A stretch of 64,000 bases of DNA from Ruegeria conchae (GTDB lineage: Bacteria; Pseudomonadota; Alphaproteobacteria; Rhodobacterales; Rhodobacteraceae). Under the pieces are notes generated by a model. The model did no database searches and had not been told where the DNA came from. It saw only the letters and a list, made by a program, of their open reading frames with translations. Below, in pieces: positions 560 to 64,000 of the stretch (the first letter of the stretch is position 1; every line of letters begins with the position of its first letter). The stretch covers positions 124,001 to 188,000 of the forward strand of contig NZ_AEYW01000007.1 in assembly GCF_000192475.1 (NCBI RefSeq), written 5' to 3'. The translations under genes were made by a program, and so were the position numbers.

Positions 560-1308
560 CAGAGCTTCTCCAGGGTCTTGTCGAGCCAGCCAAGAAAACC
601 CTTGGGCTCTTCGGCGACCGGGGCCAGCAGAGGGGCCAGAATGTCGATCTGCTCCTCAATCTTGTCCTTGGGTCGGGGTGGCAGATATTTATTGACGGGT
701 TTGGTGCCCATTTCGGGCATCAGGTCCATACCGTCGCGTTCGGCGACCAGCTTGCTAACATCGCTGTCGGGATCCCCGAGGTCTCCAAAATGACGCGCGC
801 CCGCCGGGCAAGTGCGCACGCAAGAGGGTACACGATCCACTTCGGGCAGGTTCTCGTTGTAGATCCGATCGACGCAAAGGGTGCATTTCTTCATCACGCC
901 TTCGGCTTGATCCAATTCGCGAGCACCATAGGGGCATGACCAGGCGCAAAGGCCACAGCCGATACAGTCGCTTTCGTTAACGAGAACGATACCGTCCTCA
1001 GCCCGCTTATAGCTGGCGCCAGTTGGGCAGACCGTGACGCAGGGCGCGTCTTCGCAATGCAGGCACGATTTGGGGAAGTGGATCAGTTGGGCGTGCCCTT
1101 CCGCTGGCTGCACCTCGTAGGAATGTACGCGGTTGAGGAAAGTACCCGAGGGGTTTGCGCCATACGCATCCTGATCGGAAAGAGGTGCGCCATAATTTTC
1201 GGTGTTCCAGCCTTTGCAAGAGATCACACAGGCATGGCATCCGACGCAGGTGTCCAAATCGATGACAAGACCCATTTTGCGGTCGGTAGATGTGGGGAGT
1301 CGGGTCAT
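559..1308 (-). CDS. soeB: SoeB-type four-cluster ferredoxin subunit of sulfite dehydrogenase
   Basis: Electron-transfer subunit carrying electrons from the molybdenum subunit to the membrane anchor. With the start chosen here (249 residues) there are four cysteine sets: C21/C24/C27/C31, C82/C85/C90/C94, C115/C118/C121/C125 and C142/C145/C163/C167, as in DmsB/PsrB/SoeB proteins with four 4Fe-4S clusters. The ATG at 1308 overlaps the soeA stop by ATGA; an ATG five codons upstream (1323) is possible but lies inside soeA. No signal peptide is present, consistent with a cytoplasmic complex. It is the middle gene of soeABC and overlaps both neighbours. Confidence 0.9.
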   Translation of the reverse strand: MTRLPTSTDRKMGLVIDLDTCVGCHACVISCKGWNTENYGAPLSDQDAYGANPSGTFLNRVHSYEVQPAEGHAQLIHFPKSCLHCEDAPCVTVCPTGASYKRAEDGIVLVNESDCIGCGLCAWSCPYGARELDQAEGVMKKCTLCVDRIYNENLPEVDRVPSCVRTCPAGARHFGDLGDPDSDVSKLVAERDGMDLMPEMGTKPVNKYLPPRPKDKIEEQIDILAPLLAPVAEEPKGFLGWLDKTLEKL

Positions 1309-4121
1309 TTTCCTACCTTCCACGCCAGGTTTTTGGGGCCGGTGCCAACCGGGGATTTAATCGGATCGAACTCGGGTTGGCTTTCGGCGTCGCTTGGAGC
1401 GGCGGCTTTTTCGATCTTTACCTTCAGATCGAACCACGCAGCCTGACCGGTGATCGGATCAGAGTTTGCCCAGCGCAGACCGTCACCCTTCGGTGGCAGC
1501 AACTCGTGGATCAAGTGGTTGAGCAGAAAACCCTTTGTGGCCTCAGGCGCATCTTCCTGAAGTGCCCAAGTGCCTTTGCGCTTTCCGATGGCGTTCCAAG
1601 TCCACACGGTATTGTCATTCAGTGCTGCCATTTCCATGACCGGCACGGTAATCTCACCATGCGGAGAGCTGACTTTGGCCCAGTCGCCGTCTTCCAGCCC
1701 ATGTTCACGCATAAGCTTGGTCGGGACGTAAAGTGGGTTACGCCCGTGCAATTGCCGCAGCCATGCGTTTTGGGTGCCCCAGCTGTGGTACATCGCCATG
1801 GGGCGCTGCGTCAGGGCGTTGACGGTGAAGCCTTCACTGCCGGTCTGGTCGGTCTCGTACCAGATCGGCAGCGGGTCCATCGTGTCCTTGATCCGTTGGC
1901 GCAGGTGTTCGGGTGGTTGCCGTTCGCCATGACCTTCGGCTGCCAGCTGGAACTTTCGCATGGGTTCGGAATAGAGCTGGAACAGATAAGGCTGCGGGCT
2001 GTCATATATGCCCATGCCAACAGCCCAATCCTGATAGGCATTGTTCCACGGCTTATAGTAGTCGGCACCGTCGGGTATATGCGCGATATAGAAACCACCG
2101 TTCTCGATGTAGCGGTTCAGCTGATCGGGATTGACCTCGCCGCGGCCTTCCTTGTCGCCGTTTGCGCCCCGGAAACCGGCCAAAGGCCCGATGCCAGGTT
2201 TGCGCTCGTGATTCACAATGTAGTCGGCGTAATCCGTCCACTTGGCGCTGCCGTCTTCGTTGGTAAAGCCAGGCAGGCCCATGCGATTGGCGAGATCAAT
2301 CAAAACCGACTGGAAGCCGCGCACGTCGCGGTCGGGTTCGATCACGGGCCAGCGGATCGCATCTGCGGCGGCCTCGGCTTCGCAGATCGGGCGGTCCAGC
2401 AGCGAGATACAGTCGTGGCGTTCCAGATAGGTGGTGTCGGGCAGGATTAGGTCAGCGTAAGCCACCATTTCCGAGCTGTAGGCGTCGGAATAGATGATGC
2501 GCGGAATCACATAATCGCCGTTCTCATCCTTGTCCGTCAGCATCTCCATGACACCTTTGGTGTTCATGGTCGAATTCCAGGACATGTTGGCCATATACAT
2601 GAACAGCGTGTCGATCTTGTAGGGATCGCCCGCATGGGCGTTCGAGATCACCATATGCATCAGCCCATGGCTGGACATTGGGTTTTCCCATGTAAACGCT
2701 TTGTCGATACGGGCGGGGCTACCATCTTCTTTAAGCGCGAGATGCTCGGGGCCGCGGACAAATCCCAGATGCGGCCCGTCCAGAGGTGTATTCGGCGTCA
2801 CCTTACAGTGCGGGGTCGGATGCGCCTCAACCGGCTTGGGGTATGGTGGTTTGAAGCGGAAGCCGCCGGGGACTTCGACTGTTCCAAGCAGGATCTGCAA
2901 CACATGCAGGGCGCGGCAGGTCTGGAAACCGTTCGCGTGGGCCGAGACGCCGCGCATCGAGTGCATCGCGACAGGGCGACCGATCATCTTCGAGTGTTTC
3001 TCGCCCCGGAAATCGGTCCATTCATGGTCCAGTTCGAAGGCTTCATCAAAGGCCACACGGGCCAGTTCGGCTGCGATCGCTCGAATACGGGTCGCAGGTA
3101 CGCCGCATTTATCGGCGATTGCCTCGGGTGCGTATTCGTCGGCCAGATAGCGTTCGGCCATCTGGTGGAAAACCGGACGGTGCGTGACCCCATCTTTCTC
3201 GTAGGTTGCCGAGAGATCAGGCCGCACGCCCGGTTTGTCGAACGCAGTCAGCTCGCCAGTTTTGCGATCAATGACCAGCGGTTTGCCGTCGTCGTCTTTC
3301 AGGAACAGACCTTTTTCCGGGCCTTCGGATGCGTTGATCAAGACCGGTGCGTTGGTGTAGCGGCTGAGGTAATCCAGATCAATTTTACCGGCCTTCATCA
3401 GCACATGGATCAGCGACATGATGAACAGGCCGTCGGTTCCGGGTGTGATTCCAACCCAGTCATCTGCCACGGCATTATAGCCACTGCGGATTGGGTTGAC
3501 CCCGATCACACGCGCGCCGCGGGCCTTGATTTTGCCAATTCCCATCTTGATGGGGTTTGAGTCGTGGTCTTCTGCCACACCGAACAGCATGAACAGCTTG
3601 GTGTGATCCCAATCAGGTTGACCAAACTCCCAAAATGCGCCGCCCATCGTGTAGATGCCACCTGCTGCCATGTTGACCGAGCAGAACCCGCCATGGGCTG
3701 CATAGTTACAGGTGCCGAAATTCTGCGCCCAGAAACTGGTGAAGCTCTGGCTTTGGTCGCGGCCCGTGAAAAAGGCCAGTTTTTCGGGATTGTCTTCGCG
3801 GATCGGTTTCAGCCAACCGACAGCGATCTCCAGCGCCTCGTCCCAGCTGATTTCCTCGAACTCACCCGAACCGCGCGGCCCGACCCGTTTCAGTGGTGCG
3901 CGCAGCCGCGACGGTGCGTTCACCTGCATGATCCCTGCGCTGCCTTTGGCGCAAAGCACCCCTTTGTTCACCGGATGATCCCGGTTGCCTTCGATATAGG
4001 CGACCTTTCCATCCTTCATGTGCACGTTGATACCGCAGCGGCAGGCGCACATGTAGCAGGTGGTGCGGCGAATCTCATCTGACACAGGCGGGGATAGGTT
4101 GAGGTTTGGTTGTTGGTTCAC
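1305..4121 (-). CDS. soeA: SoeA-type molybdopterin sulfite dehydrogenase catalytic subunit
   Basis: Catalytic subunit of the membrane-bound, cytoplasm-facing sulfite-oxidising enzyme (sulfite to sulfate), of the DMSO reductase/PsrA molybdopterin family. It has 938 residues. The N-terminal 4Fe-4S motif is C22-x2-C25-x3-C29 ... C57, and a conserved GGFCS segment puts C147 where PsrA-type enzymes carry the molybdenum-ligating cysteine. There is no twin-arginine signal, which fits SoeA and argues against periplasmic Psr/Phs/Ttr enzymes. I chose GTG at 4121 because AGGGAG lies 9 bases upstream; the ATG at 4151 has no such site. It follows xsc on the same strand after a 169-base gap with hairpins. 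Assignment to sulfite rests on family plus context. Confidence 0.85.
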   Translation of the reverse strand: MNQQPNLNLSPPVSDEIRRTTCYMCACRCGINVHMKDGKVAYIEGNRDHPVNKGVLCAKGSAGIMQVNAPSRLRAPLKRVGPRGSGEFEEISWDEALEIAVGWLKPIREDNPEKLAFFTGRDQSQSFTSFWAQNFGTCNYAAHGGFCSVNMAAGGIYTMGGAFWEFGQPDWDHTKLFMLFGVAEDHDSNPIKMGIGKIKARGARVIGVNPIRSGYNAVADDWVGITPGTDGLFIMSLIHVLMKAGKIDLDYLSRYTNAPVLINASEGPEKGLFLKDDDGKPLVIDRKTGELTAFDKPGVRPDLSATYEKDGVTHRPVFHQMAERYLADEYAPEAIADKCGVPATRIRAIAAELARVAFDEAFELDHEWTDFRGEKHSKMIGRPVAMHSMRGVSAHANGFQTCRALHVLQILLGTVEVPGGFRFKPPYPKPVEAHPTPHCKVTPNTPLDGPHLGFVRGPEHLALKEDGSPARIDKAFTWENPMSSHGLMHMVISNAHAGDPYKIDTLFMYMANMSWNSTMNTKGVMEMLTDKDENGDYVIPRIIYSDAYSSEMVAYADLILPDTTYLERHDCISLLDRPICEAEAAADAIRWPVIEPDRDVRGFQSVLIDLANRMGLPGFTNEDGSAKWTDYADYIVNHERKPGIGPLAGFRGANGDKEGRGEVNPDQLNRYIENGGFYIAHIPDGADYYKPWNNAYQDWAVGMGIYDSPQPYLFQLYSEPMRKFQLAAEGHGERQPPEHLRQRIKDTMDPLPIWYETDQTGSEGFTVNALTQRPMAMYHSWGTQNAWLRQLHGRNPLYVPTKLMREHGLEDGDWAKVSSPHGEITVPVMEMAALNDNTVWTWNAIGKRKGTWALQEDAPEATKGFLLNHLIHELLPPKGDGLRWANSDPITGQAAWFDLKVKIEKAAAPSDAESQPEFDPIKSPVGTGPKNLAWKVGK

Positions 4122-4169
4122 GTTATCTCTCTCCCTGTGGCGAATCGCCATGGTGCCTGCGCGTGTTGG

Positions 4170-9594: not shown

Positions 9595-10356
9595 TCAGGG
9601 GCGCAGATCTTCTTCGTCTTCGTCGTCGCCGCCACCTTTGGGCAGGTTGAAGAAGCTATCGGCATCAACGATTGGCTCATCGTCTTCTTTGTCTTCAGGC
9701 TCGTCGGATAGCGAGAACGTCTCTAGGCCTTCAATCGCGGTCGGGATCTTAGGTGCAGAATCCATTTCCAGCGATTGCTCGGTCGACACCAGCTTGCGAC
9801 GCTCATCATCGCTCATAACGCCGCCTTCAGCAGCTTTCTTGGCCGCAGCCTTCTGCACGATGGCATCCAGTTCGGACTGTTTGCACAGGCCCAGAGCAAC
9901 CGGATCGATCGGCTGCATGTTCGAGATGTTCCAGTGCGTCCGCTCGCGGATCGACTGGATGGTCGGCTTGGTGGTGCCAACCAGCTTGGCGATCTGACCA
10001 TCGCTGAGTTCCGGGTGGAACTTGACTAGCCACAGGATCGAGTTCGGACGGTCCTGCCGCTTGGAGAGCGGCGTGTAGCGCGGGCCGCGGCGTTTTTCTT
10101 CGCCTGAAGCCGCCGGGTTGAATTTGAGTTTCAGCTTGTGCAGCGGATTGTTCTGCGCTGTATCAATCTCTTCCTGAGTCAGCTGGTTGTTGGCAATCGG
10201 ATCAAATCCTTTGACACCAGCAGCCACATCACCATCCGCGATGCCCTGCACCTCAAGCTCGTGCATCCCTACGAAATCCGCGATCTGCTTGAAGCTGATC
10301 GTGGTGTTGTCCACCAGCCATACGGCGGTTGCCTTGGCCATAAGCGGTTTTGCCAT
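9595..10356 (-). CDS. trcR: TrcR (DUF1013) RNA-polymerase-associated cell-cycle regulator
   Basis: Alphaproteobacterial DUF1013 protein of 253 residues. The Caulobacter member TrcR travels with RNA polymerase and affects ctrA transcription (established knowledge). Visible features are two helix-turn-helix-like segments, around 18-40 (SFKQIADFVGMHELEVQGI) and about 120-140 (LSDGQIAKLVGTTKPTI). Between them is a conserved basic stretch (KLKFNPA..KRRGPRYTPLSKRQDRP), and the C-terminal tail is very acidic and ends EDEEDLRP. GGAGAC sits 7 bases ahead of the ATG. No operon partner is evident; the neighbour upstream is divergent. Confidence 0.9.
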   Translation of the reverse strand: MAKPLMAKATAVWLVDNTTISFKQIADFVGMHELEVQGIADGDVAAGVKGFDPIANNQLTQEEIDTAQNNPLHKLKLKFNPAASGEEKRRGPRYTPLSKRQDRPNSILWLVKFHPELSDGQIAKLVGTTKPTIQSIRERTHWNISNMQPIDPVALGLCKQSELDAIVQKAAAKKAAEGGVMSDDERRKLVSTEQSLEMDSAPKIPTAIEGLETFSLSDEPEDKEDDEPIVDADSFFNLPKGGGDDEDEEDLRP

Positions 10357-10486
10357 CAGCCCGTCTCCTATAAATACATCTGTCCCGTCGCCGGAATGCG
10401 GCGGCCCCGAGGCTTTGGGGCAGGTTTCCGTTGTCGGGGAACTTGGGGCCTATATAGTCGCGACAACTAAAGAAGGGAAGAGGCGA

Positions 10487-11128
10487 ATGCGCCAAGGTAT
10501 TCTGGGGCTGGTATTGTGGTTCTTCAGCGCGATGGCAGCGCTGGCCGATGGCGAGCAAGCGGGAGAATTCGACTACTATGTCCTGTCGCTTAGCTGGTCA
10601 CCCAACTGGTGCGCCCGCGAGGGGGATGCGCGCGGATCGGAACAATGCGATGCCCGGCACGATCACGGATGGATCCTGCACGGGCTATGGCCGCAATATC
10701 ACCAGGGCTGGCCCTCTTACTGCCGCACGGTTGAGGCTCCGCCATCACGCCGTATGACACGGGAAATGGAGGACATTCAGGGCTCATCCGGGCTGGCATG
10801 GCATCAATGGAAAAAGCACGGAACCTGCTCGGGTCTGAGTGCGCCAGACTATTTTGCGCTGTCACGAAAGGCCTATGAAGGCGTCACGCGACCCGACGTG
10901 TTTCGTAAACTCGATGCGTCGGTCAAAATGCCTGCTTCGGTGGTGGAAGAAGCATTTCTCAAGGCCAACCCCAATCTGGAACCAGACATGATCTCGATCA
11001 CCTGCAAGCAGGGATATATCGAAGAGGTCCGCCTGTGCCTGTCCCGCGATCTCAAGCCCGTTCCATGTGGCCGGGATGTTATCCGCGACTGCACTGCCAA
11101 AGACGCCGTGTTTGATCCGATTCGTTAA
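10487..11128 (+). CDS. Secreted ribonuclease T2 family protein
   Basis: Endoribonuclease cleaving RNA through a 2',3'-cyclic phosphate intermediate. 213 residues from the ATG at 10487, with a signal peptide ending near ALADG (about residue 20), so periplasmic or secreted. Both catalytic blocks are present: CAS I as HGWILHGLWPQY and CAS II as WHQWKKHGTC, each with its histidine. Several cysteines fit disulfides. The frame stays open 100 codons upstream, but that part overlaps trcR and has no signal peptide. The gene is convergent with, and overlaps by stop codons, the next minus-strand gene. Confidence 0.9.
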   Translation: MRQGILGLVLWFFSAMAALADGEQAGEFDYYVLSLSWSPNWCAREGDARGSEQCDARHDHGWILHGLWPQYHQGWPSYCRTVEAPPSRRMTREMEDIQGSSGLAWHQWKKHGTCSGLSAPDYFALSRKAYEGVTRPDVFRKLDASVKMPASVVEEAFLKANPNLEPDMISITCKQGYIEEVRLCLSRDLKPVPCGRDVIRDCTAKDAVFDPIR

Positions 11129-11613
11129 AGCTTTTTGTTCTGGCAATCGCGCGCATATTCCAGCGCTTTGGCCGTGCCTTTCAGATCAATTGCCATGACA
11201 GTCTGACCCTCTGGGTTGTAAACGGTCATGGTCTTGTTCTGCGCAATCGAGGTGACGAAGCTCCGGTCGGTAAAGAACACCGTCGCGCCGGGCACGCGAT
11301 CCTGTTTGAACCCGATGGCGGTGGCATCAAAGCTCTTGCCGTCCAACTCGAACCGGATCGGATAGCTCTGCCCTGGTTTGATGTCGCCCCAAGCCTTGTT
11401 GTAAACGGTGAAATACCCACGATTGTCCAGCGCGTCATAGCCCAGCCGCACCACCGAGAGATCCTGATACACGGTCTGGATCAGGCACCCATTTCCGAGG
11501 TTGGGGTCCATCATGATGTTCCAGCCCTCGACGAAGCCTTTGTCGATGAGTTCCTGCGACAGGGCGGCGGTGGCGCTGAAGGCGGCCAGGGTCAAGGCAA
11601 AAAGTCGGGACAT
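11125..11613 (-). CDS. Hypothetical exported protein, 162 aa
   Basis: Not recognised at family level. A clean N-terminal signal peptide (cleavage about residue 20, after ALS) is followed by a soluble domain rich in beta-type sequence, with two cysteines (GNGCLI and the C-terminal RDCQ). This resembles the small periplasmic proteins of unknown role common in Rhodobacterales. It converges on the RNase T2 gene with overlapping stop codons (TAA/TTA). A 149-base gap separates its start from the divergent ArsR pseudogene. Confidence 0.8.
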   Translation of the reverse strand: MSRLFALTLAAFSATAALSQELIDKGFVEGWNIMMDPNLGNGCLIQTVYQDLSVVRLGYDALDNRGYFTVYNKAWGDIKPGQSYPIRFELDGKSFDATAIGFKQDRVPGATVFFTDRSFVTSIAQNKTMTVYNPEGQTVMAIDLKGTAKALEYARDCQNKKL

Positions 11614-11762
11614 CAGATCATTCCAAATCGCAAGTGATACTGACCCTTAGTAACCGCAAACCATTCTCTTCCAAAGAGAATTCGAGAGATTCAAACTGCA
11701 GGGTGGTTCATCCTTTTATTTTACCAGTTGATTAATTAACCATGTGATTTATTAATGGGATT

Positions 11763-12100
11763 ATGACTGACGACAAAAAATTGGATTTTGCATTTGCCGC
11801 TCTTGCGCACCCTGCGCGCCGCGCCATGCTGGCGCGATTGGCACAAGGAGAAGCAACAGTAAAAGAACTGGCCGAGCCGTTCGATGTAAGCATGCCGGCA
11901 ATCTCTAAACATCTTCGTGTTTGGAAGAGGCCGGGCTGATTGAGCGTTCAAGAAACGCTCAGTTCCGACCCTGCAGACTAAACCCGGAGCCTTTGGAATC
12001 GATTGCAAACTGGACTGACCAATATCGTCATATTTGGGAGGTTCGGTTTGAAGCGATGGAAAAACTACTTAGCGAAATAAAGGATTTGAATGATGAGTGA
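11763..12100 (+). pseudogene. ArsR-family regulator interrupted by a single-base frameshift
   Basis: From ATG 11763 the product reads as a normal ArsR/SmtB winged helix for about 54 residues (FAALAHPARRAMLARL, then SMPAISKHLRV). It shifts after HLRV to an early TGA at 11938. In the +1 frame the protein resumes at once with LEEAGLIERSRNAQ and runs to 12100, giving a typical length near 112 residues. Restoring one T in the TTT run near 11921-11923 would mend it. The repaired frame overlaps the AHSA1 start by about 11 bases, the usual ArsR-SRPBCC pairing. It is either a recent inactivation or a sequencing error. Confidence 0.8.
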
Positions 12101-54461: not shown

Positions 54462-56354
54462 GTGACCCCAGTGGAGCAATTGGCATTTACCTATGAGATG
54501 GCCGTGGTGTCGGGGCTTTTGGCGTTCACGGTTTTCTTGTTTGTGTCTGAAATCGTCCGGATCGATCTTTCCGCTATTCTCGTTTTGGTCATTGTCGGTC
54601 TGCTGAGCTATGCGCCCGGCCTTGAGAATCTGGCAGATGTACCGCATCTGTTTGACGGATTTGCGTCGAATGCGGTCATTTCGATCATTGCAGTAATGAT
54701 CGTTGGTGCGGGGCTGGACAAGACGGGGCTGATGAACAAAGTCGCCTCGGTTATCCTGAAATATGGTGGCAAGTCGGAAGGACGGGTTTTGCCCATCATT
54801 TCAGGTACCGTCGGTGTCATCTCGTCATTCATGCAGAATGTCGGTGCCGCGGCTTTGTTCCTTCCTGTGGTTAGCCGGATCTCATCTCGATCAGGGATCC
54901 CGCTGTCGCGATTGCTAATGCCGATGGGGTTTTGCGCCATATTGGGTGGCACGATGACCATGGTGGGCTCTTCTCCGCTGATCCTTCTGAATGATTTGAT
55001 TCAAACTGCGAATGAGGGTTTGCCTGAAGCACAGCGTATGGAGCCTTTTGGGTTGTTCTCGGTCACGCCCATAGGTGCGGTGCTGATTTTGACGGGTATC
55101 GCGTATTTCCTTTTGCTGGGGCGATGGGTCTTGCCGGGTGATTCAGGTTCGGAAAGCACCGGTACCGGGCGCGGGACGCAGGAATATCTTCAGCGGGTTT
55201 ATGGGCTGAAGGCCGACGTGTTTGAGGTTGTTGTACCGGCCGACAGCCCTTTGGTTGGGCAAATTCTGGCGGATATCAATTTCGAAAATCACCTCTATAT
55301 CATCTCGACCTTTTATCGCGGCAAGACCTCGATGGTTCAGGTGTTGACAGCCGAAATTGCCGCGCCATGCCGATTGGCGATTGTGGGGCGGCGTTGGGTT
55401 GTCGAAGAATTTGCCGAAAAGTACGGGCTGACCGTGCTGCCGGATCTGGATGTGTTTGTCGAAGAGTTTGCACCCACAAATGCCGGGGTCGCAGAGGTGG
55501 TCGTGACGCCCGAGAGCAAGCTGATCGGCAAATGCCCGAGGGAGTTGCTGTTTCGGAAAACTTACGGAATGTCTCTGCTCGCCATCCATCGGGGGGAGGA
55601 AACGCTAAGCCATGTCGAAACAGAGACACACGAATCCACGCAAATCGGTCTTGAGAAGTTCAAGGCCGGTGACATGTTGGTTGCCCATACCCGTTGGGAT
55701 AACCTGATGCGGATCAAGCGTGACCCGGATTTTGTTGTGGTCACATCTGATTTCCCGCAAGACGAATTACGCCCGCAAAAGGTTGGCTGGGCGCTTTTGT
55801 TTTTCGTGATCTCTTTATCGCTAATTCTATTCACAGATGTGCGGTTGTCGCTTTGCCTGCTGACGGGTGCTGCGGGTATGATGCTGACCCGCGTGTTGAG
55901 CGTGGACGAGGCCTACCGCGCGGTCGGGTGGAACACGGTCTTTCTCTTGGCCTGCCTGATCCCATTGGGGCAAGCGGTGCAGAATACGGGAACTGCAGCA
56001 TGGATTGCGCAACAGATCATGATCATCCTGGACGGATGGCCAATCTGGGCGCTCCAGGCCGGTGTAGCCATTCTGGCGACAGCGTTTTCGCTGGTGATGT
56101 CGAATGTCGGGGCCACAGTTTTGCTGGTGCCCCTTGCGGTTTCAATCGCGGTTGCCGCCGGTGGCAACCCCGCTGTCTTTGCGTTAACCGTCGCGATTTC
56201 GACCTCGAACAGTTTCATTATCCCGACCCATCAGGTCAACGCGCTAATCATGGGGCCCGCAGGGTACAAGGTTATGGATTTCGTGCGTTCCGGCGGCGTC
56301 ATGACGATCATATTTCTGATCGTCTCGCTGTTGATGCTAAACGTGATCTTCTAA
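54462..56354 (+). CDS. SLC13/DASS-family permease with TrkA_C domains
   Basis: 630 residues. Two membrane halves separated by a cytoplasmic region (about 225-430) that carries two RCK/TrkA_C-like domains, including PLVGQILADINF and SKLIGKCPRELLFRKTYG. Membrane motifs include SSFMQNVGAAALFLPV and the C-terminal VMSNVGATVLLVPLAVS and SNSFIIPTHQVNALI, typical of the divalent-anion symporters. Relatives transport sulfate, dicarboxylates or related anions; the substrate is not determined. The GTG start is inferred from family N termini (TPVEQLAFTYEM); no clear ribosome site. Confidence 0.88.
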   Translation: MTPVEQLAFTYEMAVVSGLLAFTVFLFVSEIVRIDLSAILVLVIVGLLSYAPGLENLADVPHLFDGFASNAVISIIAVMIVGAGLDKTGLMNKVASVILKYGGKSEGRVLPIISGTVGVISSFMQNVGAAALFLPVVSRISSRSGIPLSRLLMPMGFCAILGGTMTMVGSSPLILLNDLIQTANEGLPEAQRMEPFGLFSVTPIGAVLILTGIAYFLLLGRWVLPGDSGSESTGTGRGTQEYLQRVYGLKADVFEVVVPADSPLVGQILADINFENHLYIISTFYRGKTSMVQVLTAEIAAPCRLAIVGRRWVVEEFAEKYGLTVLPDLDVFVEEFAPTNAGVAEVVVTPESKLIGKCPRELLFRKTYGMSLLAIHRGEETLSHVETETHESTQIGLEKFKAGDMLVAHTRWDNLMRIKRDPDFVVVTSDFPQDELRPQKVGWALLFFVISLSLILFTDVRLSLCLLTGAAGMMLTRVLSVDEAYRAVGWNTVFLLACLIPLGQAVQNTGTAAWIAQQIMIILDGWPIWALQAGVAILATAFSLVMSNVGATVLLVPLAVSIAVAAGGNPAVFALTVAISTSNSFIIPTHQVNALIMGPAGYKVMDFVRSGGVMTIIFLIVSLLMLNVIF

Positions 56355-56363: not shown

Positions 56364-57464
56364 CTATCCGGACAGGTTGATTGTTTGGCCCTGTTCGGAT
56401 GCTTGTTGCGCCGCAAGACCGATGCGTACGGCCCAAATCCCATCACCCAGAGAGACCTCGGGTTTGGCGCGCTCACCCCGGATCAACTCCAGAAAACCTT
56501 TGTGCTGATAATAGGTCGAGCCATTGTGGTCGCCAGCCGCCAGCAACTCGGGGTCGACCGGAATCTCACGTTGGATTGGGCCTTTCGGTGCGCGGGGGCT
56601 GATGATCAGCTGTGGTACCGGCGCGTCGCCCAGATGTTCGGGCCAGAACCGGCCCGGGCCGGGCACAAGCGCTTCGATCTTTGCTTCGGGTCCAATGGCT
56701 GAGATTTCTTCCTGATACCGCGACCCCTCGGCGAACATGCAAAGCTCGAGCATCGCCCGCGCGCCTGAGGCGAAATCGACAATGACATAGCCGTGGTCCA
56801 GAATATCCGGAGTATCGCCGTTATAGTCTTCGTCCAAGTGATTGACGGCTTGGCCACCGCTTGCCGAAACCCGAACCGGATCTGATTGCAGGATCAGGCG
56901 CATGAGATCGAAGAAGTGGCAACACTTTTCAACGAACGTACCGCCGGTGTTGCGGTTGAACCGGTTCCAGTTGTCGACCTTTTCAAGAAACGGGAAACGG
57001 TGTTCGCGGATCGAGAGCATTTTGATCCCACCACTGGCGGTCGCTGCTTTATCGATGAGCACCGCAATAGGGGGCATATAGCGATATTCCATCGCCACCC
57101 AGATCGGGTGAGGGTAAATGCGATCCAGTTCCTCAAGCCGGGCAAGATCGGCGGGGTCGGTGAATAACGGTTTCTCGATCAACAGGGGCAGGGGGCGGGT
57201 TTCCGCAATCTCGGCCAGTTGATCGACATGCAGGTGGTTGGGGCTGGCGATGACCAGACAGTCTAGGTCACTGACCGCCAGAAGGTCCTGAATGGAAGAT
57301 GCTATCTTCGCATCGGGCGCAATCGCCTGCGCCTTTTGCGCCATCTCCGGGTCAGGTTCGAAGATTGCGGCGACGCGTGTGCCCTCAAGCAGAGCAATGT
57401 TGTGCAGGTGTTCCTGCCCCATCATGCCGCATCCGATCAGCCCGTAGTTGGTGGTCCGGGTCAT
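56364..57464 (-). CDS. Gfo/Idh/MocA-family dehydrogenase
   Basis: 366 residues. NAD(P)-binding GLIGCGMMGQEH at the N terminus (8-19), then the family EKP motif (LLIEKPLF, near 97) containing the catalytic-site lysine, and a C-terminal alpha/beta domain with GGTFVEKCCHFFDLMR. Such enzymes oxidise sugars, inositols or related polyols. It lies 12 bases downstream of the GntR/UTRA regulator on the same strand, divergent from the SsuD-like monooxygenase set, and is therefore likely part of one catabolic regulon. Confidence 0.92.
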   Translation of the reverse strand: MTRTTNYGLIGCGMMGQEHLHNIALLEGTRVAAIFEPDPEMAQKAQAIAPDAKIASSIQDLLAVSDLDCLVIASPNHLHVDQLAEIAETRPLPLLIEKPLFTDPADLARLEELDRIYPHPIWVAMEYRYMPPIAVLIDKAATASGGIKMLSIREHRFPFLEKVDNWNRFNRNTGGTFVEKCCHFFDLMRLILQSDPVRVSASGGQAVNHLDEDYNGDTPDILDHGYVIVDFASGARAMLELCMFAEGSRYQEEISAIGPEAKIEALVPGPGRFWPEHLGDAPVPQLIISPRAPKGPIQREIPVDPELLAAGDHNGSTYYQHKGFLELIRGERAKPEVSLGDGIWAVRIGLAAQQASEQGQTINLSG

Positions 57465-57476
57465 GCGCAGTTCCTT

Positions 57477-58187
57477 TTACTTCAGGCGTTGAACGTATTT
57501 GGCCCGATCCGGATCGAACCATGTTTTTGAAAACTCGACAGGTTCGGCTTTCTCAGACCAGCTGAACCGTTCGATGTAACCGACCGTGTGTCCGGCAGAT
57601 TTGGTGAAGCCTTCAGGCGTCCAGTCGGGCAATGAACCGATGGAAACGCGATCCTCTGCCCGTGTAATCCAGAAGCCAAGCTGTTGCTGGTAATAGCGAT
57701 AAAGTGAGTCGGACAGCAGGTTCTGGTCGATGGTCCCAGCCGATTCGTCCAGCCAGATTTCCTCGACCGCGATGATTGTGTCATTCAAATAGCGCATCCG
57801 GCGCACCCGCGAACCGTGATCAGACAGGCCGAATTCCGGCAGGTCTGCGGGCTTTTGCAGATGATCAACCGATAGGATATCAGCGCGCGGCAACCCGCCG
57901 CCTTCGGGTAATTCCAGCCGGAACATCGCATAGACGCTGTTCTGCGTTCCAGTCTCGCGGATGTAGTTGCCCGAACCCTGAATACGCTCCAACATGCCTT
58001 TTTTCTCAAGCTCGGCGAGGGATTTTCGCAAGGTCCCGACTGAGACATTCAGGTTCGAAGCCATGTCTCGTTCGGGCGGAAGACGTTCACCATCAATCAG
58101 GCGACCCGCCGCGATATCACGGATCAGCAGCTCTGAGATCTGGACATAGATAGGCAGGGCATTTGGGTTGCGGCTGTTGGAGGACAT
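57477..58187 (-). CDS. GntR/HutC-family regulator with UTRA domain
   Basis: 236 residues. Winged helix at about 10-75 (LIRDIAAGRLIDGERLPPERDMASNLNVSVGTLRKSL, across positions 18-54) and a UTRA ligand domain (about 95-235). HutC-subfamily members are usually repressors released by a pathway intermediate. Divergent from the SsuD-like gene with a dyad operator at 58218-58242 between them, and upstream of the Gfo/Idh/MocA gene. Confidence 0.92.
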   Translation of the reverse strand: MSSNSRNPNALPIYVQISELLIRDIAAGRLIDGERLPPERDMASNLNVSVGTLRKSLAELEKKGMLERIQGSGNYIRETGTQNSVYAMFRLELPEGGGLPRADILSVDHLQKPADLPEFGLSDHGSRVRRMRYLNDTIIAVEEIWLDESAGTIDQNLLSDSLYRYYQQQLGFWITRAEDRVSIGSLPDWTPEGFTKSAGHTVGYIERFSWSEKAEPVEFSKTWFDPDRAKYVQRLK

Positions 58188-58217
58188 TGAGGGCGCTTCA
58201 CTCGGTCGCAGGAAAAA

Positions 58218-58242
58218 TTGATATACTATTGATCTACATCAA
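58218..58242. promoter_or_regulatory. Probable operator of the GntR/UTRA regulator
   Basis: Imperfect inverted repeat TTGATATAC-N7-CTACATCAA in the divergent intergenic region, overlapping a TATACT -10-like hexamer on the plus strand (58222-58227) and a TTGATG -35-like hexamer on the minus strand. The right part, TTGATCTACATCAA (58229-58242), also equals an FNR consensus, but no -10 lies at FNR-type distance, so GntR control is preferred. Confidence 0.65.
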
Positions 58243-58292
58243 TGCGCTTGCTACGCAAGAGGAAAGTCAAAGATGTACGGAGCGTGAATCAA

Positions 58293-59447
58293 ATGACCAT
58301 CGTCCCCATCACATCCCCCGACCTGGATGCGGCCGAGGTTTCGTGGTTTGCAGCGCTCTGCTCGGATGACTACCAGTTTCTGGGTGTGCCCGATGGTGAT
58401 CTGCGATCCAGTTGGGAGCATTGCTCGGGCATCGTTAAAGAGGCCGAGGCGCAAGGTTTTCGCAACATCCTTTGCCCATCGTCATATCAGGTCGGACAGG
58501 ACACCCTGAGCTTTGTCGCAGGGTGCGCGCCGATTACCGAAAAAATCAACCTACTGGCCGCCGTGCGCTGTGGTGAGATGCAGCCCATCATGCTGGCCCG
58601 TACCATCGCGACGCTGGACCACATGCTCAAGGGGCGGTTGACGGTCAACATCATCTCGTCCGATTTCCCGGGCGAAAAAGCCGACAGTGCGTTTCGCTAT
58701 CAGCGTTCGCGCGAAGTGGTTGAGATTCTGAAACAGGCCTGGACGCAGGATGAGATTAACCATGCGGGCGAGGTCTACAATTTTTCGAGCCTGACTACGG
58801 ACCCGGCCCGGCCTTACCAGGCTGGTGGCCCACTTCTGTATTTTGGCGGCTACTCCCCGTCTGCTTTGGACCTGTGCGGCGAGCATTGCGATGTCTATCT
58901 GATGTGGCCAGAAACCAAGGATCAGTTGGCCGAGAGGATGAAAGCCGTTCATGCCGTTGCCGAGAATTACAATCGTACTCTGGATTACGGTCTGCGCGTC
59001 CACATGATTGTTCGCGATACCGAGGCTGAGGCACAGGAATACGCCGACTACATCGTTTCGAAACTGGATGACGAATACGGTCGCGCGATCCGCGAGAGGG
59101 CGTTGGACGCGACATCGTTGGGTGTGGCGCATCAATCCAAGAACCGTGATCTGGCGGATGAATTTGGCTATGTCGAACCCGGCCTGTGGACCGGCGTCGG
59201 TCGCGCGCGTTCGGGCTGTGGTGCTGCGCTGGTCGGTTCGACCGATCAAGTTATGTCTAAGATTGAAGAGTATCAGAAGCTGGGCATCCGCGCCTTCATC
59301 TTCTCGGGCTATCCGCACATGGACGAGGCCAAGCATTTTGGCGCCCGCGTGATGCCCAACCTGAAAACCTGCTCGCTTCCCGAAGCCTACGGACGCGTGC
59401 CAGCAACCACCCCGGCGACCCCGCTGGGCAACGGAGTTCGTCGCTAA
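58293..59447 (+). CDS. SsuD-like FMNH2-dependent monooxygenase (LLM class)
   Basis: 384 residues from the ATG at 58293 (GGAG 12 bases upstream; a GTG at 58284 is possible). Luciferase-like family closest in pattern to alkanesulfonate monooxygenase SsuD: LYFGGYSPSALDL, CDVYLMWPETKDQL, LRVHMIVRDTEAEA, LWTGVGRARSGCGAALVG and IFSGYPHMDEA. It would use reduced flavin and O2 to split a C-S bond, releasing sulfite and an aldehyde. The reductase is supplied two genes downstream; the AKR between them may reduce the aldehyde. Overlaps the AKR start by one base. Confidence 0.9.
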   Translation: MTIVPITSPDLDAAEVSWFAALCSDDYQFLGVPDGDLRSSWEHCSGIVKEAEAQGFRNILCPSSYQVGQDTLSFVAGCAPITEKINLLAAVRCGEMQPIMLARTIATLDHMLKGRLTVNIISSDFPGEKADSAFRYQRSREVVEILKQAWTQDEINHAGEVYNFSSLTTDPARPYQAGGPLLYFGGYSPSALDLCGEHCDVYLMWPETKDQLAERMKAVHAVAENYNRTLDYGLRVHMIVRDTEAEAQEYADYIVSKLDDEYGRAIRERALDATSLGVAHQSKNRDLADEFGYVEPGLWTGVGRARSGCGAALVGSTDQVMSKIEEYQKLGIRAFIFSGYPHMDEAKHFGARVMPNLKTCSLPEAYGRVPATTPATPLGNGVRR

Positions 59448-60337
59448 TGCAACGTGTGAAACTATCTGACACGCTGGAAATGAGCCGCCTTGTCTATGGC
59501 ATGTGGCGCTTGGGTGATGACAGTGACACCTCGACAGCGCATGTCGAGGCCAAGATACAGGCTTGTCTGGATCAAGGGATCACCACCTTCGACCAGGCAG
59601 ATATCTACGGTGGATACGCAGCCGAAGCTGTTCTGGGCAACGCCTTGCGCGCCAATCCCAGCCTGCGCCAGAAGATGGAGATCGTCACCAAATGTGACAT
59701 CGTCGCGCCAATGGGTCGCTATGCGGAGGCCAAGGTCAAATACTACGACACGTCGCGCGCGCATATTCTGAAATCGGTGGATACGTCTCTGTCGGAAATG
59801 GCGATTGACCACATCGACCTGCTATTGATCCACCGCCCTGATCCAATGATGGACCACAATGAAACCGGTGCAGTGCTGGACGAGGTGGTTGCCAGTGGCA
59901 AGGTCGGGGCTGTAGGCGTGTCAAACTTCCGCCCTTGGGATTGGTCTCTGCTGCAGTCGGCAATGAAAACCCAGTTGGTCACCAATCAGATTGAAATCTC
60001 GCTTGGAGAAATCGGCCCGTTCACTAACGGTGATCTGGCGTTCCATCAGCAGCATGGACATCCGCTGATGGCGTGGTCCCCGCTTGGCGGCGGCCTTTTG
60101 ATGGCCGGGAACCCTCCGGTCGGTGTTGTAGCGGATGAGATCGCCGCAGAATTCGGCGTGGACCGAGCGGCAGTGGCCGTTGCCTTCCTGCTCGCGCATC
60201 CGGCAAACATCCTGCCGGTTCTGGGCACAAATAATCTGGGCCGCATCAAGCGCGTCTCGGATGCTTTGAAGGTCAAGCTGGATCGTGAAAGCTGGTACCG
60301 CCTGTATGAGGCGGCGCTGGGACATGAGGTGCCCTGA
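59447..60337 (+). CDS. Aldo/keto reductase
   Basis: 296 residues, TIM-barrel NAD(P)H-dependent reductase. The catalytic tetrad is visible: D49, Y54, K82, H129 (FDQADIYGG, TKCD, LIHRPD). NADP-binding region near the end is GTNNLGRIKRVSDAL. It resembles the YdhF/AKR11-type group. Start overlaps the monooxygenase stop (TAATG) and its own stop overlaps the flavin reductase ATG (TGATG), so the three are translationally coupled. Confidence 0.94.
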   Translation: MQRVKLSDTLEMSRLVYGMWRLGDDSDTSTAHVEAKIQACLDQGITTFDQADIYGGYAAEAVLGNALRANPSLRQKMEIVTKCDIVAPMGRYAEAKVKYYDTSRAHILKSVDTSLSEMAIDHIDLLLIHRPDPMMDHNETGAVLDEVVASGKVGAVGVSNFRPWDWSLLQSAMKTQLVTNQIEISLGEIGPFTNGDLAFHQQHGHPLMAWSPLGGGLLMAGNPPVGVVADEIAAEFGVDRAAVAVAFLLAHPANILPVLGTNNLGRIKRVSDALKVKLDRESWYRLYEAALGHEVP

Positions 60338-60852
60338 TGAATGCAATCTCGCGCGATATGAACCATACATTCGTCCCGCATAAAGACGACACGCGCACCC
60401 TGCGCGATGCCTTTGGTCGCTTTGCCACCGGTGTTACGGTCGTGACCTGCGACAGTGAGGATGGCCCGATCTGCATTACGGCCAACAGCTTTTCGTCACT
60501 GTCGCTGGACCCACCACTGGTGATGTGGGCGGGCGATCGTAATTCGCGCCGGTTCCGGTATTTTCACACGGCACGCCATTTTAGCGTGCATGTCCTGTCT
60601 GCTGAACAGGCCGAGCTGTGCTTTGGCTGTTCAAAAGACGCCCATGCGCTGCGTGATATCGAACATGACCGTTGCGAAAACGGCACCCCGTTGTTGCCGG
60701 GCAGTCTTGCCCGGTTCGAATGCGAGCAGCACGCTTATCACGATGCGGGCGATCATGTGATCGTCGTGGGCAAAGTTCTGAAGGTCAGCATGGCGGATGG
60801 AGACGCGCTGACTTTCTTTGCCGGAAAACTCGGCCAATTCGCGCAGAGCTAA
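60337..60852 (+). CDS. NAD(P)H:flavin oxidoreductase (HpaC/SsuE-role)
   Basis: 171 residues, split-barrel flavin reductase. Family motifs: RDAFGRFATGVTVVT at the N terminus, ITANSFSSLSLDPPLV and the FMN region with RHFSVHVLSAEQ; also HAYHDAGDHVIVVGKV. Supplies FMNH2 to the SsuD-like enzyme. An in-frame ATG at residue 8 (MNHTF) is an alternative start. Coupled to the AKR by overlapping codons. Confidence 0.94.
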   Translation: MNAISRDMNHTFVPHKDDTRTLRDAFGRFATGVTVVTCDSEDGPICITANSFSSLSLDPPLVMWAGDRNSRRFRYFHTARHFSVHVLSAEQAELCFGCSKDAHALRDIEHDRCENGTPLLPGSLARFECEQHAYHDAGDHVIVVGKVLKVSMADGDALTFFAGKLGQFAQS

Positions 60853-60905
60853 GCGCGATATGACGATTGCGGGGCAAACCCGCAGCTGAACAAGGGAGGA
60901 TCCGC

Positions 60906-61493
60906 ATGGGCGGACTGGCATCGGCGCTCGCGCCGATTGCATTCGTGAACGAAACCGTGCTGCGATTGGGCCGCGCGGTTGGTGTCGTTGCGATTGCAGT
61001 CATGGTAATCGCAATCCTGATCCAAGTGTTCTTTCGATACGTTCTGGGCAACGCCCTGCCGTGGCCGGATGAGGCTGCGCGGTTCTGCATGCTCTGGATG
61101 ACGGGTCTGATGGCCCCCACCGCTTTCCGCCGTGGAGGGTTCGTCGCCATCGACATGCTTGCGCGTTTCCTGCCGCGTGCGCTTGGCCTTTCGCTCAATC
61201 TGTTCCTGCTGCTGATCTCGCTGGCCGTCCTGCTGGTTGCGGTCAATATCGGCTGGTCCGAGGTGACGGGCTTTGGTGGCCGGTTCGCCACTGCGGCGTT
61301 GTATTTGCCTACCTCTTTGGGGTTTGATGAATGGTATCGCATCCCGCGCAGTTGGATGATGGCCTCGCTGCTGGTGGGGATCATCCTTCTGATCTCGGTC
61401 AATATCGAACTGATCCTGCGGTCCATCGTGACCATGCTAGGCGGAGCACATCTGTTGCCCGAAATTCCCGAAGCTGCGGTGGGGGCTGAATAA
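60906..61493 (+). CDS. TRAP transporter small permease (DctQ)
   Basis: 195 residues with four helices; core EAARFCMLWMTGLMAPTAFRRGGFVAIDM is the DctQ signature (positions about 57-85). ATG 60906 is fixed by AAGGGAGG at 6 bases. First of the transporter genes, 53 bases after the flavin reductase, ending in TAAATG with dctM. Confidence 0.93.
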   Translation: MGGLASALAPIAFVNETVLRLGRAVGVVAIAVMVIAILIQVFFRYVLGNALPWPDEAARFCMLWMTGLMAPTAFRRGGFVAIDMLARFLPRALGLSLNLFLLLISLAVLLVAVNIGWSEVTGFGGRFATAALYLPTSLGFDEWYRIPRSWMMASLLVGIILLISVNIELILRSIVTMLGGAHLLPEIPEAAVGAE

Positions 61494-62783
61494 ATGCTGA
61501 TCTGGTTCCTGCCTACATTCCTTGTCTTCCTGCTGATCGGCCTGCCGGTCTTTTTCGCGCTACTGGCTGCACCCGGTATCTTGCTGTGGCTGAGTGGCCA
61601 AACCAACGACATCACGCTGCTCTATCGCAATGTCTATAACGGCATGGACAGCTTCCCGCTGATGGCTATTCCGTTCTTCATGCTGGCCGGAGAGCTGATG
61701 AATCGCGGCGGCATCACCATTCGCCTGGTCGAGTTCAGCCAGGCCCTGATGGGCCACCTGCGGGGCGGTCTCGCACATGTGAACGTCCTCAGCTCAATCC
61801 TGTTTGCGGGCCTTTCCGGGTCCGCCGTGGCGGACACCTCGGCGCTGGGTTCGATGCTGATCCCCGCGATGGAGAAGCAGGGCTATACCCGCAAATTCGC
61901 CGCAGCGATCACGGCGGCCAGTTCAGTGATCGGGCCGATCATCCCGCCCTCGGGCATCATGATCATCTATGCCTATGTCATGGGCGAAAGCGTGGCGGCC
62001 CTGTTCCTAGCAGGTATCGTGCCCGGTGTGATGGTTGGCGTTGGGCTGATGCTTATGATCAAGGTCATGGCCGATCGTTATGACTTCCCTGTCGCGAGCC
62101 GTAAATACACTTGGCCCGAACGCCGTCAGGCCAGCCTTAAGGCCTTCTTTCCGCTGATGACACCAGTGATCATTCTAGGTGGTATTCTCGGCGGTATCTT
62201 CACCCCCACCGAGGCCGCCGCCGTGGCTGTGGGATACGCTTTCATCATCGGTTTCTTTATTCTGCGCACACTTACCTTGAAGGAAGTTCCTGAAATACTT
62301 AGCAACGCGGGTATGACCTCGGCGGTCGTCTTGCTGTTGGTGGGCGCGGCAATGGCGTTTAAGACGGTGGTCAGCCTCAGCCATGCGCCGGAACAGTTGG
62401 CTTCGCTAATCCTCAGCCTATCGGAAAACCCGCTGATCCTGCTGTTCCTGATCAACCTGCTTTTGTTCATCGTGGGTATGTTTCTGGACGCAGGCCCGGC
62501 GATCATCATCCTTGGCCCGATCCTTGGTCCGATCTTCACCAGTCTTGGTGTCGACCCGATCCATTTCGCCATCATCATGAGCGTCAACCTGACCGTTGGT
62601 CTGGCCACACCGCCAATGGGCCTGGTTCTGTTCGTAGCCGCCGCAGTGTCGCGGGAGCGGGTAGAAACCATCGCCAAAGCCATCCTGCCGTTTCTGGCAG
62701 TCGAAATCATTGTGATCTTCCTGATCACATACATCCCCGCACTATCCATGACGATCCCGAGGATAACGGGATTTGCAAACTGA
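61494..62783 (+). CDS. TRAP transporter large permease (DctM)
   Basis: 429 residues, about twelve helices. Signature segments: FPLMAIPFFMLAGELMNRGGI, GGLAHVNVLSSILFAGLSGSAVAD and IPPSGIMIIYAYV. Sodium-coupled translocation subunit. Directly joined to dctQ; 20 bases before dctP. Confidence 0.95.
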   Translation: MLIWFLPTFLVFLLIGLPVFFALLAAPGILLWLSGQTNDITLLYRNVYNGMDSFPLMAIPFFMLAGELMNRGGITIRLVEFSQALMGHLRGGLAHVNVLSSILFAGLSGSAVADTSALGSMLIPAMEKQGYTRKFAAAITAASSVIGPIIPPSGIMIIYAYVMGESVAALFLAGIVPGVMVGVGLMLMIKVMADRYDFPVASRKYTWPERRQASLKAFFPLMTPVIILGGILGGIFTPTEAAAVAVGYAFIIGFFILRTLTLKEVPEILSNAGMTSAVVLLLVGAAMAFKTVVSLSHAPEQLASLILSLSENPLILLFLINLLLFIVGMFLDAGPAIIILGPILGPIFTSLGVDPIHFAIIMSVNLTVGLATPPMGLVLFVAAAVSRERVETIAKAILPFLAVEIIVIFLITYIPALSMTIPRITGFAN

Positions 62784-62803
62784 GTTTCACAGGGAGGAAA
62801 CGC

Positions 62804-63865
62804 ATGCTCAGAAGATTTATCAAAACCGCAGCGGTGGCCACATCGTTGGTGGCTGCATCCGCGATTGCCGCGACAGCCGCCGACTACACGCTACGCGCCA
62901 CAGCAAACTCGAATGAAAACGACGAAGACTATGACGGTCTGGTCGTTTTCAAAAACTATGTCGAGGCGGCCTCGAACGGAGCCATTGAGGTTGAGCTGTT
63001 TATCGGAACGCAGCTTTGCTCGAACGGTGCCGAGTGCCTGCAGGGCGTGGCGGATGGCACCATCGACATCTACATCTCCACCTCTGGCGGCGCGTCGGGC
63101 ATCTTTCCTTACGTGCAGGTTCTGGACCTGCCATATCTGATGGCCGATGACCGCATTGCCGAACACGTGTTGTCAGGCGATTTCACCCGCAAAATGCGCG
63201 ACATGGCGCTGGAAGATTCCGGTGGCGCGATCCGCTTGATGACCATTGGCAACACCGGTGGCTGGCGCAACTTCGCCAATACGCAGCGTCGTGTTGCCGA
63301 GCCTGCCGATATGGAAGGTCTGAAAATTCGCACAGTCGTGGCCGACCTGCCACAAGAACTGGTTAAGGCTCTTGGTGCCTCGCCGACCCCAATCCCGTGG
63401 CCGGAACTGTTCACCAGCTTCCAGACCGGTGTGGTTGAAGGATCCAAAAACGGCATCACCGACATCATGGGCATGAAATTCCCCGATGCGGGTCTGCAAT
63501 ACGTCACGCTTGATGGTCACGCTTACATGGGTGCGCTGTGGTGGATGAACAACGCCAAATTCCAGGAAATGCCCGAGGACATGCGTCGCGTTGTCGTGGA
63601 TGGTTTTTATGCGCTGCAGCAGGCCACCTTTGCCTCGCCCAAGCGCAAATCGATCCAAGCGTACGAAGATTTTGTTGCTGGCGGAGGTGATCTCTACGTA
63701 CCTACACCCGAGCAGAAAGCCGCGTTCAAAGAGGCTGCAACGCCGGTCTATGCCTGGTTCCAGTCAAACGTGGCACGCGGGGACGAAGTGTTCACTGCGC
63801 TGACCGAGGCCGTTGCAGCGGCTGAGGAGGATGTAAACGCCTCGCGTGATGCGGATCTGAACTAA
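62804..63865 (+). CDS. TRAP transporter solute-binding protein (DctP)
   Basis: 353 residues with a signal peptide of about 26 residues (ending ATAAD). DctP-family marks: ELFIGTQLCSNGAECLQGV, GGWRNFANTQR and the ligand-anion arginine in LKIRTV, then ALGASPTPIPWPELFTSFQTG. The arginine fits binding of a carboxylate or similar anionic ligand. GGGAGG precedes the ATG. Placement after dctM (Q-M-P order) suggests the substrate matches the adjacent oxygenase pathway. Confidence 0.95.
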   Translation: MLRRFIKTAAVATSLVAASAIAATAADYTLRATANSNENDEDYDGLVVFKNYVEAASNGAIEVELFIGTQLCSNGAECLQGVADGTIDIYISTSGGASGIFPYVQVLDLPYLMADDRIAEHVLSGDFTRKMRDMALEDSGGAIRLMTIGNTGGWRNFANTQRRVAEPADMEGLKIRTVVADLPQELVKALGASPTPIPWPELFTSFQTGVVEGSKNGITDIMGMKFPDAGLQYVTLDGHAYMGALWWMNNAKFQEMPEDMRRVVVDGFYALQQATFASPKRKSIQAYEDFVAGGGDLYVPTPEQKAAFKEAATPVYAWFQSNVARGDEVFTALTEAVAAAEEDVNASRDADLN

Positions 63866-63895: not shown

Positions 63896-64000
63896 TCACC
63901 GAAACGGGTACATCCACCCTTTGTAGTCGTTGACCAGAACATGCGCCCTTTCGATCTGCTCCGGCGACATCTTCTTGACCACTTCCTCAAGGCTGATCGC
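63896..64000 (-). CDS. C-terminal end of an unidentified protein (5' end outside window)
   Basis: 34 codons are visible before a TGA at 63898-63896. The tail contains SLEEVVKKMSPEQIERAH and ends GWMYPFR. It has a charged, helical, conserved-looking composition, but no family is recognised. It converges with dctP, 30 bases apart. Confidence 0.5.
   Translation of the reverse strand, partial: AISLEEVVKKMSPEQIERAHVLVNDYKGWMYPFR

Follow-up and report, generated by a model that had tools for sequence, protein, structure and literature searches.

Sulfoquinovose (SQ) is the sugar that forms the head group of sulfolipids in plants and algae. In Agrobacterium, which uses the SQ monooxygenase (sulfo-SMO) pathway, the sulfoquinovosidase belongs to family GH31. 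The importer of that pathway is an ATP-binding cassette (ABC) system for SQ-glycerol (PMC9594981), and annual SQ production has been put at about 10 billion tons (PMC10755693). The sulfo-SMO pathway has also been assigned to Roseobacter-clade bacteria (PMC13372026). The sulfoquinovosidase family GH188, founded on FlSqgA (PDB 8QC2) and ArSqgA (PDB 8QC3), is near-universal in the sulfo-SMO clusters of marine Roseobacter bacteria and is found in clusters of the sulfo-Embden-Meyerhof-Parnas (sulfo-EMP) type as well (PMC10755693). The literature examined gives only a poor picture of how marine bacteria import SQ and SQ glycosides. Here we analyzed a window of 64,000 nt from Ruegeria conchae (contig NZ_AEYW01000007.1, positions 124,001 to 188,000), in which eight genes at window positions 56364-63865 form what we read, with a probability of about 0.94, as a sulfo-SMO-type SQ utilization operon that carries a tripartite ATP-independent periplasmic (TRAP) importer. 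The cluster consists of the following features.

56364..57464, minus strand: sqgA-type gene for a predicted GH188 NAD+-dependent sulfoquinovosidase, earlier called a Gfo/Idh/MocA dehydrogenase (PDB matches, residues)
57477..58187, minus strand: GntR/UTRA regulator, divergent from smoC (PF00392 and PF07702)
58217..58233, no strand assigned: candidate GntR operator ATTGATATACTATTGAT, 17 bp, between the GntR gene and smoC
58293..59447, plus strand: smoC, putative FMNH2-dependent SQ monooxygenase of the luciferase-like monooxygenase (LLM) class (PDB search, identity, tree)
59447..60337, plus strand: smoB, aldo/keto reductase, putative 6-dehydroglucose reductase (PDB search)
60337..60852, plus strand: smoA, flavin (FMN) reductase, putative supplier of FMNH2 (PF01613, overlap with smoB, synteny)
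60867..61493, plus strand: DctQ, TRAP small permease, TTG start uncertain (PF04290)
61494..62783, plus strand: DctM, TRAP large permease (PF06808; TIGR00786 above its cut-off)
62804..63865, plus strand: DctP, TRAP binding protein, putative ligand SQ or its glycerol glycoside (PF03480, linkage)

Open reading frames and Pfam domains bore out all eight genes at these positions. An earlier note on this DNA had described the same genes and overlapping codons, and these are present as it said apart from the start of the oxygenase gene; the 1-base stop/start overlaps of smoC with smoB (at 59447) and of smoB with smoA (at 60337) are real. As in the sulfo-SMO systems of Agrobacterium and Roseobacter, SmoC, SmoB and a putative SmoA stand side by side, and C-S cleavage to sulfite and glucose is expected. 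The presence of GH188 is likewise shared with the Roseobacter clusters (PMC10755693). In contrast to the Agrobacterium system, the glycosidase here is of the GH188 type, and TRAP genes stand where that system has an SQ-glycerol ABC importer (PMC9594981). The earlier note took the pathway to be possibly undescribed. The desulfonation pathway is known, however, and the cluster is an ordinary roseobacter sulfo-SMO cluster of the kind already published for that clade (PMC10755693, PMC13372026). What goes beyond the literature examined is the linkage of the TRAP importer to two SQ pathways and a Sel1/MauG-like gene pair that accompanies it.

The oxygenase groups with SmoC

We found that the oxygenase is 79% identical to PDB 7oh2 and 78% identical to 7olf over 384 aa, two entries that we take to be SmoC structures, while its identity to MsuD (7jv3) is 34% and to SsuD (1m41) 31%. 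The PDB search gave E ~1e-213 for 7olf and 7oh2 versus ~1e-55 to 1e-50 for MsuD and SsuD. Against the NCBIfam models, the oxygenase scored 238.8 bits (E 9e-71) with TIGR03565 for SsuD, where the curated cut-off is 518.2, and 154.8 bits with TIGR04021 for SfnG, where it is 382.95.

A placement of the oxygenase in a tree with SsuD, SmoC, MsuD and SfnG had been suggested in the earlier note. In a maximum likelihood tree of 33 rows the protein fell in a 15-row clade with 7oh2 and 7olf (support 100/99), nested in an 18-row SmoC-like clade (100/99). This larger clade is apart from SsuD/MsuD, from the SfnG-like rows and from two alignable LLM paralogs of the same genome; a third paralog (L004) had no blastp match and was left out. 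Long branches were flagged (L139, L003, L145, L147, L001), and we drew nothing from the deep branching beyond the SmoC clade. The tree shows no clustering with non-sulfonate LLM enzymes, the outcome that the note had named beforehand as telling against its proposal. Its description of the oxygenase as one of a sulfonate-cleaving type holds.

We moved the start of smoC from 58242 to the ATG at 58293, because 14 of the 52 matches in relatives contained a stop codon when the search began at 58242 and because PDB homologs align from exactly residue 18 of the longer reading frame. When six of these 14 were searched again from 58293, zero stops were found.

The best PDB match of SmoB was 7bby/7bbz (E 4e-122), presumably SmoB itself, and the next family was YdhF at E 2e-60. 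The combined monooxygenase, flavin reductase and aldo/keto reductase logic of SmoC, SmoA and SmoB was correctly recognized in the earlier note. Co-location of smoB and smoC, here with one shared base, is the feature by which sulfo-SMO clusters are recognized in PMC13372026.

A gene on a Spirosoma oryzicola plasmid (L121:7953-9083; L and G numbers are our handles for loci and genomes) encodes a protein 53% identical to SmoC and lies beside amino acid permeases and a SusC/SusD pair. Neither SmoB nor GH188 is annotated near it.

The Gfo/Idh/MocA protein belongs to GH188

The earlier note saw no sulfoquinovosidase in the cluster and counted the Gfo/Idh/MocA protein as an added dehydrogenase. We found that this protein matches PDB 8zn9 at E 5e-170, 8qc2 at 1e-115 and 8qc3 at 1e-113, the next best match being at 5e-13, and that it aligns over its full length with known GH188 enzymes. 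ArSqgA contacts SQ through Lys107, Tyr136, Arg166, Leu170, Lys172, Glu189, His193 and His321, among which Arg166, Leu170 and Lys172 form the sulfonate triad (PMC10755693). All eight contacts are identical in the alignment (K98, Y127, R156, L160, K162, E179, H183, H313); a ninth published residue, Glu163, was left uncounted, as it lies one place off a conserved Glu in the numbering used. By homology and by these residues the protein is a GH188 sulfoquinovosidase, and it is predicted to cleave SQ glycosides in an NAD+-dependent manner. The missing glycosidase and the supposed extra dehydrogenase are one and the same protein.

It shares full-length alignment and the eight contacts with FlSqgA and ArSqgA (PDB 8QC2, 8QC3, 8QC6). 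Unlike for these, its closest structure is 8zn9, labeled 'Oxidoreductase, putative', which we take to be a marine homolog. The protein opens directly with its Rossmann fold and by eye has no signal peptide, so intact SQ glycosides would need to be imported.

Gene order and co-occurrence in relatives

Synteny was counted in the best 80 loci from a contig search. GH188 and GntR on the minus strand followed by SmoC, SmoB, SmoA, DctQ, DctM and DctP on the plus strand is the order in 64/80 loci. The earlier note had proposed to examine gene order in other roseobacters; with an identical order in so many loci, the arrangement is not due to chance. Eleven of the 16 deviating loci had no TRAP match and the remainder were mostly cut by contig ends. 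SmoA is syntenic in 79/80; its match is at the level of the family (PF01613), with no closer reference, and for that reason we do not treat the flavin reductase as diagnostic.

Among 148 genomes of relatives, the window's own genome counted, we found SmoC in 52 (E <= 1e-120), DctP in 51 (1e-100) and GH188 in 58 (1e-80). GH188 was present in 52 of the 52 SmoC genomes. Within the genus (54 genomes), 41 have all three proteins and 13 have none of them at these E-value limits. In a second sample of 292 genomes of the same order, SmoC was found in 141, DctP in 113 and both in 95.

The TRAP importer is linked to GH188 in two SQ pathways

The genes for DctQ, DctM and DctP are adjacent and make a complete TRAP set, in agreement with the earlier statement that TRAP here takes the place of an ABC importer. 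In the 148-genome sample GH188 was present in 51/51 genomes with DctP (Fisher p 2e-32, and 2e-9 outside the genus, both uncorrected for kinship). DctP and GH188 occur together in the absence of SmoC in four of the 148 genomes. In three of these (L122, L123, L126) the TRAP genes and GH188 lie in one locus together with a PfkB kinase, a LacD-type aldolase and an isomerase. The kinase of L122 has sulfofructose kinase 7ag6 as its best PDB match, and the L122 isomerase matches the NCBIfam SQ isomerase model NF048012 with 279 bits, below the cut-off of 700. For the L122 aldolase the DUF2090 protein 8tnf came first, followed by tagatose-bisphosphate aldolases, with sulfofructose-phosphate aldolases lower. 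In the fourth genome (G067) DctP and GH188 are on separate contigs, and a PfkB kinase and a fucose-isomerase-type protein (below the Pfam cut-off) adjoin GH188.

In the sample from the order, GH188 was found in 17/18 genomes with DctP but without SmoC, G429 (L173) being the exception, and the 17 loci all contain DctM, DctP, the Sel1/MauG-like pair, the kinase, the isomerase and GH188, with the aldolase and DctQ in 16 each. In all, the DctP orthogroup adjoins GH188 in 20 SmoC-less loci with sulfo-EMP-type genes (L122, L123, L126, L156-L172). Such loci resemble the GH188 clusters of sulfo-EMP type in PMC10755693, and share with the locus studied here the TRAP orthogroup, GH188 and the Sel1/MauG-like pair. 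They differ from it in having a kinase, an aldolase and an isomerase where SmoC, SmoB and SmoA stand here, and a DeoR regulator (a homolog in 14/20 loci, checked with Pfam in L122 only) rather than GntR.

Since the same importer adjoins GH188 in two pathways that have the substrate in common, it seems tied to SQ uptake and not to desulfonation as such. The linkage data thus point to this TRAP orthogroup as the likely importer, which would make it a candidate marker of SMO and EMP degraders alike. A link between TRAP and SQ uptake appears in none of the titles and abstracts surveyed, PMC12890257, PMC13372026 and PMC9594981 contain no word starting with 'TRAP', and the available text of PMC10755693, gene-cluster figures aside, does not mention it. 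The link may already be in print, for example in Liu 2023 (ISME J) or Ma 2025 (Nat Commun), both of which lay outside the survey.

Proposed pathway and alternative readings

As a sulfo-SMO operon the cluster would work as follows. The TRAP system would import SQ and sulfoquinovosyl glycerol, from which the cytoplasmic GH188 enzyme would remove glycerol by an oxidoreductive NAD+ mechanism. With FMNH2 supplied by SmoA and with O2, SmoC would split SQ at its C-S bond into sulfite and 6-dehydroglucose, and SmoB would reduce the latter to glucose. A SoeABC-like enzyme probably oxidizes the sulfite. A single operator at 58217-58233 probably serves the GntR/UTRA protein to repress the two divergent arms.

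Several points weigh against the assignment to sulfo-SMO with an SQ importer. The genome G429 (L173, G429:C10:824000-842000) has DctP (70%), and neither SmoC nor GH188 nor a sulfo-EMP gene was detected there. DctP is missing in 5/52 SmoC genomes of the 148-genome sample and in 46/141 of the sample from the order, so TRAP is not obligatory. Rhodobacteraceae HIMB11 (L100), one of the eleven loci with no TRAP match, has GH188, GntR, SmoC, SmoB and SmoA, and according to Pfam the genes that come next, in place of TRAP, encode ABC permeases, an ABC ATPase and an alpha-amylase-family enzyme (L100:12733-19262). The DctP residues R155, R176 and N216 are invariant in 27/27 aligned sequences, the window's own counted, and have the spacing of Arg156, Arg177 and Asn217 in the isethionate TRAP binding protein IseP (PMC11668362). 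IseP differs in taking a small C2 substrate, and its arginine pair is general to TRAP binding proteins; the three residues are family-wide TRAP features and no proof of a sulfonate ligand. The PDB labels of 7oh2/7olf and 7bby are generic ('methanesulfonate sulfonatase', 'alkanesulfonate monooxygenase', 'aryl-alcohol dehydrogenase'), SmoA is homologous at family level only, and the proteins of this strain are read from their sequences.

That the TRAP genes are chance neighbors with another substrate, such as a sugar acid or a dicarboxylate, is improbable in our view. DctP families are broad, the closest DctP of known structure matches at only E 5e-32, and the AlphaFold model (mean pLDDT, the predicted local distance difference test, 66.3; residues 152-241 mostly below 50) is too poor for a fold search; G429, with DctP and without GH188 or SmoC, would also fit this explanation. 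A chance neighbor, however, would hardly be expected to occur with GH188 in 51/51 genomes and to stand beside it in two SQ pathways.

Still less probable is that the locus serves an undescribed desulfonation of another sugar or polyol sulfonate (e.g. sulfofucose) or of a C2-C3 sulfonate. In favor of it, the importer is TRAP where the pathway of Agrobacterium has an ABC importer (PMC9594981), and SQ as the substrate is something we infer. Against this stand the 78-79% identity of SmoC to two SmoC structures, the retention in GH188 of the SQ sulfonate triad R156/L160/K162 and of the hydroxyl contacts, and the pairing of TRAP and GH188 with an SQ-isomerase homolog in sulfo-EMP-type loci. The C2-C3 sulfonates and sulfo-polyols offered in the earlier note are thus unlikely substrates, judged by the GH188 residues and the identity of SmoC. 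Canonical SsuD/MsuD-type alkanesulfonate scavenging for sulfur can scarcely be credited: the LLM family and the match to the NCBIfam SsuD model at E 9e-71 speak for it, but the score is 239 of 518 bits, the oxygenase lies in a separate clade, no ABC importer genes are among the neighbors read, and the cluster contains a glycosidase and a sugar-type aldo/keto reductase.

By eye, open reading frames in L094 and L104 resemble the ABC set of L100. A YeiH-like gene ('putative sulfate exporter family'), possibly a sulfite or sulfate exporter, lies 3' of dctP in 8/52 loci with enough flank, for example at L116:18079-19104, L117:15926-16885 and L119:13841-14848, and a YeiH-like gene also adjoins the DctP gene of L173.

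The GntR regulator and a candidate operator

The GntR gene is syntenic in 80/80 of the best loci. The candidate operator ATTGATRYACYATTGAT lies between it and smoC, inside an inverted repeat whose 9-nt arms, at 58217-58225 and 58235-58243, are 89% complementary. The site is conserved in 20 aligned GntR-smoC intergenic regions, the window's counted, and is present in 77/80 best loci, being missing in L058, L098 and L115. The GntR and SmoC genes are separated in L129, and there the site is found next to the GntR gene. We found one exact copy in the 4.49-Mb genome and two other places at 2 mismatches; the reversed control pattern gave one match. This suggests that 58217-58233 is a likely GntR site, as a prediction from sequence conservation and position. 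With these genome counts we do not claim a wider regulon.

A Sel1/MauG-like pair beside the importer

The linkage data also expose a conserved periplasmic di-haem/Sel1 pair, which runs on beyond the right edge of the window.

63896..64000, minus strand: 3' end of a Sel1-repeat gene (PF08238; signal-peptide-like N-terminus by eye), the rest lying right of the window
G000:C22:188367-189647: MauG-like di-haem gene, divergent from Sel1, start not fixed (PF03150, two CxxCH motifs)
G000:C22:187896-189647 (L005:97-1848): span of the Sel1 and MauG-like pair

The di-haem protein passes the Pfam CCP_MauG cut-off (114.6 vs 25.6) and is below those of the NCBIfam models TIGR03791 for MauG (120.3/443.9 bits), TIGR04039 for MbnH (126.1/362.9) and TIGR03981 (254.9/340); the NCBIfam ranking places it nearest to MauG-like enzymes. 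Its gene was found in 41/41 cluster-bearing genomes of the genus and in 0/13 cluster-less ones. Outside the genus, DctP and the di-haem gene occur together in 7 genomes, DctP alone in 3 and the di-haem gene alone in 2.

In 44/52 SMO loci that have at least 4.8 kb after dctP, the two genes are found no more than 5 kb from dctP, and the same holds for 20/20 EMP-type loci. In contrast, neither a Sel1 nor a MauG-like match was found in 10 TRAP-less SMO loci with 8 kb after smoC (44/52 vs 0/10, p 4e-7). The pair follows this TRAP strongly, though not strictly, and strict tracking is contradicted by several genomes. In G078 (L174, G078:C1:360000-379000, 5964-11896) the order GH188-GntR-SmoC-SmoB-SmoA is followed by a MauG-like gene (51%), with no match to TRAP or Sel1, so an SQ cluster can acquire the di-haem gene independently of these two partners. 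G073 (L176) has a TRAP cluster with the MauG-like gene ~21 kb away, G070 (L175) has a MauG-like gene (47%) and no SQ genes within 16 kb, and in G059, G075 and G083 DctP is present and the MauG-like gene missing.

It is conceivable, though we hold it doubtful, that TRAP, GH188 and a periplasmic MauG-like enzyme, usually with Sel1, make up a portable roseobacter SQ uptake module that is plugged into either sulfo-SMO or sulfo-EMP, and that the di-haem enzyme oxidatively modifies a periplasmic uptake protein. G078 makes this less likely, since the modified target could not always be DctP or the Sel1 protein. Were the proposal true, sulfosugar use would include a redox step that has gone unrecognized, and the TRAP system would represent a type of sulfosugar importer absent from the literature surveyed. 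When the literature was searched for sulfoquinovose together with cytochrome c peroxidase, and not for MauG or Sel1 as terms, the papers listed looked unrelated by title.

A sulfite module and other neighbors

The left end of the window (1-6066) contains a molybdopterin/FeS/DmsC-type complex downstream of xsc.

Running off the left window edge: DmsC-family anchor
559-1323, minus strand: SoeB-like subunit
1305..4151, minus strand: molybdopterin oxidoreductase large subunit, SoeA-like candidate for sulfite oxidation (context)
4291-6066, minus strand: xsc, sulfoacetaldehyde acetyltransferase (TIGR03457, 909 bits vs a cut-off of 676)

No NCBIfam model matched the large subunit (1305..4151) above its cut-off. 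We take the complex, also from its gene context, to be SoeABC, which would provide a plausible route from sulfite to sulfate ~54 kb left of the SQ cluster. An SLC13/CitMHS-type permease with a TrkA-C domain at 54462-56354, converging on the GH188 gene, is probably unrelated; among the 72 loci whose flank before smoC is 4 kb or longer, it was found in one (L041). Together, xsc and the SoeABC-like complex give this window a second sulfonate/sulfite module.

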